A stretch of DNA of 64,000 nucleotides, taken from the NCBI GenBank assembly GCA_040902225.1, contig JBBDXT010000004.1, forward strand, positions 454,965 to 518,964. The letters are read 5' to 3'. Of the stretch, positions 4,019-53,064 are shown piece by piece. Source of the stretch: Chloroflexota bacterium. GTDB taxonomy: Bacteria > Chloroflexota > Limnocylindria > QHBO01. The stretch's first letter is position 1. The number at the start of each line of letters is the position of its first letter. A program made the translations under genes and the position numbers. Under the pieces are notes generated by a model that saw nothing but the letters and a program-made list of their open reading frames with translations, was not told the origin of the DNA and did not search any database.

Positions 4019-4687
4019 ATGCTGGTCCCGATGGTCATCGAGTCGAGCGCTCGGGGTGAGCGGGCCTTCGACATCTACTCGCGGCTGCTCAAGGAGCGGA
4101 TCATCTTCCTGGGCGAGCCGATCGAGGATCACATCGCGAACCTGGTCATCGCGCAACTCCTCTTCCTGGAGAGCGAGGATCCGACCAAGGACATCAGCCT
4201 GTACGTCAACTCACCTGGCGGCGTGGTGACCAGCGGACTCGCCATCTATGACACGATGCAGTACCTCAAGGCTCCGGTCAGCACCATCTGCATCGGCCAG
4301 GCAGCAAGCATGGCGTCGGTGCTGCTGGCGGCGGGTGCCAAGGGAAAGCGCTTCGCCCTGCCGAACAGCCGGATCATGATTCACCAGGGCTCGGCCGGCT
4401 TCCGTGGCAACACCCCCGACGTCGAGATCCAGATGCGCGAGGTGATGCACCTGACCGAGCGGCTCACTGGGATCCTGGCGGCGCACACCGGGCAGCCGCC
4501 GGAGAAGGTGAAGAGCGACTCGGAGCGGGACTTCTACATGGGTGCCGATGAGGCGAAGGCCTACGGCCTGATCGACGAGGTCTTCGTCGGCTCCACCGAG
4601 TCGCTGATCAGCATGACCCAGGCCGCGGGCGGCACGGTGCCGACCGCCAAGGAAGCTGCCGCGGCGGACGTCAAGCCCAAGAAGTAG
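4019..4687 (+). CDS. clpP: ATP-dependent Clp protease proteolytic subunit
   Basis: This 222-residue serine protease forms the double heptameric barrel that degrades substrates unfolded by ClpX. The catalytic triad is complete: Ser97 in GQAASMAS, His122 in MIHQGS and Asp171 in SERDFYM, at the same numbers as the E. coli enzyme. The N-terminal [20 protein letters not shown] is the family standard. GGAG precedes the ATG, and the gene nearly abuts tig, so they are one operon. The lysine- and alanine-rich C-terminal tail (about 205-222) is a lineage extension. Confidence 0.97.
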
Positions 4688-4738: not shown

Positions 4739-4855
4739 ACCACTGTCATTGGTGAAAGGGCACCGGAGGCCTCCTTCTGCCAACGCGGCACCAATGACAT
4801 TGGTACGGCATGACGCCCGCGAGCCTCTGTGTGCGGTTGTACCAACGTGGCTGGT
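4739..4855. repeat. Array 1: three 15-bp palindromes, 51-bp period
   Basis: ACCACTGTCATTGGT (4739-4753), ACCAATGACATTGGT (4790-4804, a perfect 7+1+7 palindrome) and ACCAACGTGGCTGGT (4841-4855) start exactly 51 bp apart. The two 36-bp spacers are unrelated to each other. The array fills the gap between the convergent clpP and mmcQ-like genes, where no promoter is expected. Arrays of the same geometry occur at 49681 and 52948. Confidence 0.9.
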
Positions 4856-4860
4856 AACCG

Positions 4861-5222
4861 TCAGCGGTCCAGGCTCGCGGCCAGCTTCTTCGAGGCTCGG
4901 GTCAGCCAGGCGTCGGTGAGGATCTTCTCGAGCAGGTCCACCTCGATGGCGGGGATCCGGACCAGAACGGCGGCGTAGCCGTTGTAATGCGGCTCGGTGA
5001 AGAACACCGCCGGGTCCAGCGACAAGAGCGCCCCTTCTCCAGCTCGTTGGCGACCCGCACCCCGATCACGCCCGGGTTGGGGACGCGCGCCCGCTTCGGG
5101 TCGAGTCGCTCCATCCACGGCCAGGCGAACGCCTTGCCGCCGACCGAGAAGGCAAGGCCGGGCTCCTCGCTCGCCTCGGGGAGCGCCAGCGCAATGCGCC
5201 GCACGTCTGCCCGGGTCGCCAT
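4861..5222 (-). pseudogene. MmcQ/YjbR-like protein, frameshifted
   Basis: The N-terminal two thirds (from the ATG at 5222) read ADVRRIALALPEASEEPG and VRVANELEKG, typical of MmcQ/YjbR family proteins. The C-terminal part lies in another frame and reads LLSLDPAVFFTEPHYNGYAA then ILTDAWLTRASKKLAASLDR, also family-typical, stopping at 4861. The break lies at a run of four C on the plus strand (5031-5034), where one extra base or a -1 slip on AAGGGGC would join the two halves into about 120 residues. It may be a recent pseudogene, a sequencing error or a frameshift site. The start overlaps the ogt stop, so it was the second gene of an ogt operon. Confidence 0.75.
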
Positions 5223-5740
5223 TACCCGATGCTACCCCCGCGCTCCAGGTCAAGCAGCCAGCGCTTGACCCAGGTGTCGGCTCCCCAGCCGCCGATGGAG
5301 CCGTCGGCATGGATGACCCGATGGCACGGGACGACCGGCGAGAACGGGCAGCGGGCCATGGAGCCGCCGGCGGCGCGAGCGGCCCGCGGGGAGCCGGCCA
5401 TTGCCGCCAGCTCCGCATAGGAGACGGTCTCGCCATACGGGATCTGGCGAGCGGCAGTCCAGACGGCGACGTCGAAGGGGCGGGCGCCGCGCAGGTCGAG
5501 AGGAGTTGAGAAGGTGCGCAGCCGTCCGGCGAAATACGCCTCCAGCTCGGCGATCGCCGTGGCGGCCGCGCTGGGATCCAGGGCAAGAGGACCGTGGAAG
5601 TCACGGTCCGGGCTGTCGCCGCGCGAGACGCCGACCAGTCCCCGCGAAGAGACGGCGACCCACAGGCGGCCAATCGGCGAGTCGAAGGGTGCCTGGGAGA
5701 CCGCAATCGGATCCACCGGGGGGATGCTAGCGGGGACCAT
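5222..5740 (-). CDS. ogt: Methylated-DNA--[protein]-cysteine S-methyltransferase
   Basis: This 172-residue suicide repair protein transfers alkyl groups from O6-alkylguanine to its own cysteine. The active site PCHRV has the acceptor Cys139. Upstream lie the conserved IPYGETVSYAELA and the glycine/serine loop AAGGSMA, and the C-terminus shows GGWGADTWVKRWLLDLE as in the family. The ATG at 5740 is preferred over longer in-frame starts because the extension would overlap the clpX promoter. Its TAA overlaps the start of the mmcQ-like gene. Confidence 0.93.
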   Translation of the reverse strand: MVPASIPPVDPIAVSQAPFDSPIGRLWVAVSSRGLVGVSRGDSPDRDFHGPLALDPSAAATAIAELEAYFAGRLRTFSTPLDLRGARPFDVAVWTAARQIPYGETVSYAELAAMAGSPRAARAAGGSMARCPFSPVVPCHRVIHADGSIGGWGADTWVKRWLLDLERGGSIG

Positions 5741-49570: not shown

Positions 49571-49645
49571 GGCGGAGTAGCTCAGTGGCAGAGCAGGGGA
49601 CTCATAAGCCCTTGGTCGGTGGTTCGAATCCGCCCTCCGCTACCA
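49571..49645 (+). tRNA. tRNA with CAT anticodon (Met or Ile2)
   Basis: The clover-leaf is complete with encoded CCA: acceptor GGCGGAG against CTCCGCT (first pair G-U), D arm GCTCAGTGG, anticodon loop CTCATAA giving CAT, and GGTTCGAATCC in the T arm. The anticodon stem has an A-G mismatch next to the loop. CAT is read as Met, or as Ile when C34 is changed to lysidine. The D arm and anticodon arm resemble bacterial tRNA-Ile2 (AGCAGG before the anticodon arm, CTTGGTCG after it), and tilS follows 147 bases downstream. Elongator Met remains possible. Confidence 0.92.
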
Positions 49646-49680: not shown

Positions 49681-49818
49681 ACCAATGTGGCTGGTACAAC
49701 TGCGCCGATGACTCCGCCCGCGCGACGTCCTACCAATGTCACTGGTGCCGCGGCACGTCTGCGGGCCTCGAGTGGTGGATCAAGGCCGGATGTGCGTCGT
49801 TCTACCAATGGGGCTGGT
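49681..49818. repeat. Array 2: three 15-bp palindromes, 51 and 72 bp apart
   Basis: ACCAATGTGGCTGGT (49681-49695), ACCAATGTCACTGGT (49732-49746) and ACCAATGGGGCTGGT (49804-49818) have ACCA/TGGT outer arms. Starts are 51 and 72 bp apart, a difference of 21 bp or two helical turns. The array lies between the CAT tRNA and tilS and probably includes the first codons or leader of tilS. Confidence 0.85.
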
Positions 49819-52947: not shown

Positions 52948-53064
52948 ATAAGCGTGGCTTATGGTCGTGCACCAATGGCGCTCCATCGGGGCCGTCTGAT
53001 AAGCCACGCTTATCACGCTTCACGGTACGGGCTCCATCGGTGCACGACCATAAGTCCGGCTAAT
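52948..53064. repeat. Array 3: three 15-bp palindromes, 51-bp period, dyad spacers
   Basis: ATAAGCGTGGCTTAT (52948-52962), ATAAGCCACGCTTAT (52999-53013) and ATAAGTCCGGCTAAT (53050-53064) start exactly 51 bp apart. The arm sequence differs from arrays 1 and 2. The two 36-bp spacers are inverted copies of each other over about 16 bases: GGTCGTGCACCAATGG after site 1 and its near-complement before site 3. A long imperfect hairpin is therefore possible with site 2 in the loop. It lies between ftsH and the DnaB-like gene. Confidence 0.9.

Follow-up and report, generated by a model that had tools for sequence, protein, structure and literature searches.

Between the clpP gene and an mmcQ-like gene, which converge on each other, lie three 15-bp palindromes that begin exactly 51 bp apart. 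This arrangement raises the question of what reads the palindromes, and what purpose such an array serves in a chromosome. The window, which is the whole 64,000-nucleotide stretch of DNA analysed here, belongs to a genome of 2.28 Mb, denoted G000. The relatives compared with it, including the related genomes G001, G002, G008 and G014, are mostly draft metagenome assemblies; L numbers denote loci.

Phased palindrome triples in the window and the genome

The window contains three arrays, which are listed here together with their inner flanks and the neighboring clpP gene.

4019..4687, + strand: clpP (Pfam CLP_protease, 1.8e-81), context outside the system; its 3' end and array 1 are 51 bp apart
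4739..4855, no strand: array 1 (ACCA family), 15-bp palindromes 4739-4753, 4790-4804 and 4841-4855; steps 51, 51
4754..4763, + strand: inner flank of the first palindrome of array 1, GAAAGGGCAC (family consensus ACAACnGCGC; GCR at +7)
4831..4840, - strand: inner flank of the third palindrome of array 1, ACAACCGCAC
49681..49818, no strand: array 2 (ACCA family), palindromes 49681-49695, 49732-49746 and 49804-49818; steps 51, 72
49696..49705, + strand: inner flank of the first palindrome of array 2, ACAACTGCGC
49794..49803, - strand: inner flank of the third palindrome of array 2, AGAACGACGC
52948..53064, no strand: array 3 (ATAAGC family), palindromes 52948-52962, 52999-53013 and 53050-53064; steps 51, 51
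52963..52972, + strand: inner flank of array 3, GGTCGTGCAC (GCA at +7)
53040..53049, - strand: inner flank of array 3, GGTCGTGCAC, the mirror image of 52963-52972

A sequence-only reading of the window had described array 1 as three palindromes 51 bp apart and had noted two more triples with the same step, the third of them with different arms. Array 1 was recovered as described, with palindromes starting at 4739, 4790 and 4841, and so was the ATAAGC-type array 3. Array 2 does contain three palindromes, but its second step is 72 bp. The gap that holds array 1 is bordered by clpP (+) on one side and, as that reading had it, by the mmcQ-like gene (-) on the other, although this gene (4861-5240, - strand) is split over two frames. 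Its start, MATRADVRRIALALPEASE, is in one frame and its end, FFTEPHYNGYAAVLVRIPAIEV, in another, which is a frameshift in the genome or in the assembly. Array 2 is located between a tRNA (CAT, 49571-49645) and tilS (from about 49861). The tRNA was called as Met, directly precedes tilS in G000 and its relatives, and is probably a tRNA-Ile2 modified by TilS. Array 3 is flanked by ftsH and a gene with a DnaB_C domain.

In the whole of G000, the pattern ACCAN7TGGT-N30-60-ACCAN7TGGT has 22 matches, which pair into 11 arrays of exactly three palindromes, compared with no match for the reversed control pattern. Located via their orthologs, two further arrays (C7:162 kb and C4:847 kb) in which an arm is mutated bring the ACCA arrays of G000 to 13 (11 strict and two degenerate). 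A sequence model of the array-end unit, built from 22 sequences and used with a cut-off of E<=1, has 43 matches in G000, all 43 within the 13 arrays; the same search found no solitary site of array-end strength. The reversed-pattern and shifted-step controls rule out chance palindromes. An arm-agnostic scan of ~544 kb of G000, about a quarter of the genome including the window, identified one plausible array beyond those of the window, with ATTCG arms. This likely array, at L218:11473 (G000:C2:161473), has steps of 51 and 51 bp and GCRC inner flanks; its triple score is at the control level, and therefore its identification is based on the flanks only.

The unit of the ACCA arrays, present three times in each, is the 15-bp palindrome ACCA-N7-TGGT. 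The palindromes are imperfect, with the outer 4 bp almost invariant and the inner 7 bp degenerate. The end unit has the consensus TT-ACCAAYSNSRTTGGT-ACAACnGCGC, in which ACAACnGCGC is confined to the flank that faces the neighboring palindrome; the outer flank differs. Across eight arm families, GCR starts at +7 in 68 of 140 inner flanks but in only 8 of 70 outer flanks. Judged from these counts, GCR is a putative second element that is independent of the arm sequence.

The 56 steps from four species, partly dependent on each other because some of the arrays are orthologous, measure only 50/51, 61/62, 71/72 or 82 bp. The four permitted steps differ by one helical turn, and the 51 bp first taken as the step is one of the four. 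The best period of the 56 steps is 10.45 bp (R = 0.978). Between orthologous arrays of G000 and G002, step lengths change by ~0-1, 10 or 20 bp. The G002 ortholog of array 1, which is also downstream of clpP, has steps of 50 and 71 bp as opposed to 51 and 51, and the ABC/GcvT array has steps of 71 and 62 bp versus 62 and 61 in its ortholog. Because the steps correspond to whole turns, three bound dimers would be positioned on one face of the helix. The idea of selection on spacing, with sites on one DNA face, has thus held up: steps in the genome and its relatives are non-random and quantized at ~10.45 bp, and orthologs keep phase. The step lengths constitute strong evidence that the palindromes are kept in register on a single face of the DNA.

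The XRE-PDDEXK family and its linkage to the arrays

The candidate ligands of the arrays form a hitherto undescribed protein family composed of an N-terminal XRE (Cro/C1-type) HTH and a C-terminal PD-(D/E)XK nuclease-like domain. An ACCA array is located directly upstream of a gene of this family in G000, G002, G001 and a fourth MAG. Two family genes of G000 relate to arrays of the window.

G000:C2, about 283467-284162, outside the window: gene of the ACCA-family protein, with its own array right upstream
G000:C2:280212-280859: ATAAG paralog gene, with an array with ATAAG arms behind it

In its arms and in its inner flank, TCGTGCACCRATGG, array 3 matches the array behind the ATAAG paralog gene, and it belongs to a family separate from the ACCA arrays. 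Palindrome sets with ATAAG, ATAACC, TTGC, TCGC, GAACG, ATACG, ATGCC, ATCGG and GTGAC arms adjoin other paralogs, several of which have the array behind the gene and not before it. Arrays of the same plan have other arms in the related genomes: ACCACG in G001, TTGC in G002 and G008, ACAAGC in G002, and TCGC in G014. One gap in G002 holds two families, as an ACAAGC-arm array (L043:3400-3516, G002:C71; steps 51, 51) is positioned beside an ACCA array.

The sequence-only reading had put forward co-occurrence with one DNA-binding protein family as a check, and same-arm palindrome pairs are concentrated next to the genes of this family. The 91 kb that lie no more than 500 bp from 93 family genes contain 37 such pairs, as against 2 in 140 kb away from them, a ~29-fold higher density. 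In phase are 24 of the 37 gene-near pairs, versus 11 expected. Under a stringent test, only 19 of the 93 genes have a strictly in-phase pair at a distance of up to 500 bp, and no adjoining palindrome pair was recognized at the G000 paralog at C4:579970. Gene-linked palindrome sets at L169 (G366; steps 95, 93) and L155 (G035; a step of 50 and a distant third palindrome) suggest longer steps in other families. Family genes at L147 and L168, in other genomes of the class, are accompanied by tandem direct repeats that hold palindromes at 29-34 bp steps, which is a different plan. Shortly upstream of the start codon of most family genes, whatever the arm family, is a pair of RTAAG direct repeats ~11 bp apart (for example at L110, L092, L115 and L188), which may serve all of them as a promoter or regulator site.

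The array in the slot upstream of the gene has ACCAAY arms in G000 and G002, ACCACG in G001 and ACCAYC at L119, and the matching recognition helices are SQQLASWAELG, SQQEASKAEKG and SQQQASQAELG, respectively. A second array of G001, in the cob slot, has ACCACG arms too, and its steps of 72 and 51 bp are identical to those in G000. From this correlation, seen in three ortholog types and a handful of paralogs, we infer that the arms and the recognition helix change together between species. The ACCA-family protein is the likely ligand of the ACCA arrays. Conserved geometry with variable sequence, as originally noted, is a property of the arrays, but a single protein that tolerates different arms is probably not the explanation; different arms mark different families, several of which adjoin their own XRE-PDDEXK paralog.

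HTH_31/HTH_3 was found in 16 of 16 aligned members. Structural matches of the HTH include C.BclI and C.AhdI, with C proteins among the best, and HipB. None of Pfam, NCBIfam, PADLOC and PHROGs, all of which recognize the HTH half, matches the C-terminal half with confidence; this half yielded a single sub-threshold hint of RE_XamI, and a sequence search of its profile against PDB chains found nothing. AlphaFold2 models, with a mean pLDDT of 81 for the whole protein and 85 for the C-terminal half, show the HTH followed by alpha-beta3-alpha-beta-alpha, the helix and strand order of PD-(D/E)XK. The nearest solved folds of the C-terminal half identified by Foldseek are the PDDEXK proteins EndoMS, XisH and Cap4, at a best E-value of 6e-3 and a TM of about 0.5, with none below E = 0.001. 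Residues E115, D127, E140 and Q149 are invariant and K158 is nearly invariant among 16 diverse members. The domain is predicted to be PD-(D/E)XK nuclease-like, since the models contain the alpha-beta-beta-beta-alpha-beta-alpha core and the family has the conserved acidic residues of strands 2 and 3 and the Q/basic residue.

Full-length relatives are found almost only in one Chloroflexota class, nearly all in two of its families. The family is present in 47 of 400 genomes assigned to the phylum by their record titles, with up to seven paralogs per genome and six in G000. Members with one stop codon were considered as pseudogenes, but this reading was dropped for those examined at the 3' end, because their stop coincides with, or lies close to, the natural end of the gene.

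Candidate roles of the arrays

The sequence analysis establishes the arrays, their phasing, their constraint and their linkage to family genes, and from these we infer binding and its specificity. In the reading that we favor, with a probability of roughly 0.6, each array is a compound site for one XRE-PDDEXK protein, where three phased dimers form a compact complex with a most likely architectural, boundary or anchoring function. A dimer would read each 15-bp palindrome, and its recognition helix would set the arm sequence, so that arms differ between paralogs and species. The C-terminal domain or the linker would probably contact the GCR motif, which lies 7-9 bp outside the palindrome and is enriched only on flanks facing another palindrome. 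We propose that the three dimers make contact over the spacers and that 117-150 bp of DNA are folded up in the complex. In G000, 13 sites would belong to the ACCA protein: one directly precedes the gene that encodes it, and the others are scattered, for the most part beyond the 3' ends of genes. A few sites, array 3 among them, would belong to the ATAAG protein. Such a complex would more likely serve as an architectural, boundary or anchoring site of the chromosome than as an ordinary promoter operator.

Every array is intergenic. According to gene calls from a simple codon-usage caller, 12 of the 13 ACCA arrays of G000 are located behind at least one gene 3' end, four are between convergent genes, and one is in a divergent gap. 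This placement agrees with the first impression that array 1 is not a simple promoter operator. It bears on transcription control, in which an autoregulated repressor or activator would use the arrays as looping operators of a regulon, or as roadblock or terminator-like sites at gene ends. XRE domains are typical regulators, and the ACCA array directly upstream of its own protein's gene fits ordinary autoregulation. A precedent is C.Csp231I, with two 15-bp palindromes, a critical spacer length and a U-bend model (PMC4321490). However, the flanking genes examined have no common function, which speaks against a regulon without proving an architectural role; convergent gaps outnumber the single divergent one; and several paralogs have their arrays behind the gene. 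We consider transcription control unlikely, although it is one of the two better-placed alternatives.

The other, unlikely to a similar degree, is that the arrays are targets of a site-specific nuclease, nicked or cut by the complex for recombination, homing, or control of replication or defense. A conserved nuclease-like active site is unexpected in a purely architectural protein and counts against the favored reading. The predicted PDDEXK fold with its invariant acidic residues and Q would suit a nuclease, as would the inner-only GCR motif and the number of sites, which is three as it is in synaptic complexes. However, unless it were gated, cleavage at 13 chromosomal positions would be lethal. 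A limited check of neighbors identified no partner methylase or repair gene, no R-M genes are among the array-flanking genes examined, and the arrays are stable at orthologous places.

The stability of the arrays also makes a small mobile repeat, which the sequence-only reading had offered as an option, improbable. A MITE- or BIME-like element spread in trans by the XRE-PDDEXK protein would account for the dispersed intergenic copies and for the one pair of paralogous G000 arrays with clearly common spacers (L032a/L033, at L032:4406 and L033:4468). It would also account for slots that hold different families by species: ACCA at L032b and TTGC at L037, and, behind clpP, ACCA in G000 and G002 but TTGC in G008. 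A family gene of G014 with TCGC arrays on both sides (L101:1207-2215) could look like a composite element. Against this, for 12 of the 13 ACCA arrays of G000 the corresponding position in G002 also carries an array, in one case a TTGC array, and nearly all other spacer cores are unrelated. In several ortholog pairs, such as the haem-gene pair, the array aligns and the flanks are unalignable. Vertical inheritance and, in several cases, conservation beyond that of the flanks argue against a mobile repeat. Copies of a mobile repeat would be expected to match along their whole length and to have sharp insertion boundaries; outside L032a/L033 the spacers show no clear similarity, no target duplication or clean empty site was seen, and plasmid and phage records contain no full-length relatives of the protein. 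The slot at the cob genes is empty in G002 and, because it is filled in both G001 and G000, its array was probably lost in G002. Array 2 is present in G002 too; the tilS locus has no such array in G001 or in other family genomes. We read the arrays as functional sites with slow turnover rather than an active mobile repeat. They are dispersed over G000 and conserved in place across species; the GC skew is too weak to orient contigs or to place the arrays relative to the origin.

An RNA hairpin in each palindrome (terminator, attenuator or sRNA) would fit the 3'-end location and array 3, which is one large inverted repeat with an RNA z-score of -7.6, but was rejected as highly improbable on absent covariation and the lack of an Rfam match: inner pairs 5-11, 6-10 and 7-9 are complementary in 41, 30 and 20 of 66 cases versus 43, 33 and 27 expected, which indicates protein sites and not RNA or DNA hairpins, the folding z-scores of ACCA arrays vary from +0.7 to -5.0, and helical phasing is meaningless for RNA.

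Comparison with known systems

Extending the compound-site reading to the whole family, we speculate, at slightly less than even odds, that orthogonal XRE-PDDEXK paralogs form a lineage-specific system. Each paralog would have a genome-wide set of phased triple sites, and helix and sites would change together as co-evolving address codes that form chromosomal anchor complexes. The XRE HTH and PD-(D/E)XK folds are known; for an assembly of obligatory helical three-site arrays at a dozen gene ends with a dedicated family and several specificities per genome, we found no description in the open-access literature searched. If true, the system would show, as a natural data set, how a protein and all its chromosomal sites shift specificity in concert, and would be a new candidate in the organization of Chloroflexota chromosomes.

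A close parallel is C.Csp231I, a controller (C) protein of a restriction-modification system and an XRE HTH dimer that recognizes a 15-bp palindrome with 5-bp arms (CTAAG-N5-CTTAG) at two sites, for which spacer length, not sequence, matters and a U-bend model was proposed (PMC4321490). The arrays resemble the sites of C.Csp231I and C.EcoO109I in their 15-bp palindromes under a spacing constraint, and their candidate ligand has an XRE HTH. Those regulators, however, lack a fused nuclease-like domain and use two promoter sites with an 18-bp spacer at a single locus, whereas the arrays have three sites each, at any of four permitted steps, occur at 13 dispersed loci and contain an inner GCR motif. 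The operator of an R-M controller lies in the promoter of a C-R-M operon, unlike the 12 of 13 arrays behind gene ends. By analogy, the proposed array complex would be comparable to the C.Csp231I U-bend, but with three sites and at many loci.

The HipB antitoxin binds several palindromic operators cooperatively and has a similar XRE dimer fold; here, no toxin partner was seen, the arrays are at gene 3' ends, and the C-terminal domain is PDDEXK-like. NrdR boxes are palindromic with integral helical spacing, but they occur as two boxes in nrd promoters, and NrdR is an ATP-cone protein with a fold unrelated to XRE-PDDEXK. MatP/matS, ParB/parS, Noc and SlmA each pair dispersed palindromic sites with one chromosomal architectural protein; these sites are single palindromes or loose clusters read by other folds, in contrast to the obligatory phased triples. 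BIME/REP and MITE repeats are short palindromic elements of intergenic DNA and often occur at the 3' end of a gene; the arrays differ from them in their unrelated spacers, vertical conservation and helical geometry. The res sites of the Tn3 family also place three dimer sites along the helix, in about 120 bp in all, but they have longer subsites, bind a serine resolvase and occur once per transposon, whereas the arrays adjoin XRE-PDDEXK genes and are present in 13 chromosomal copies.
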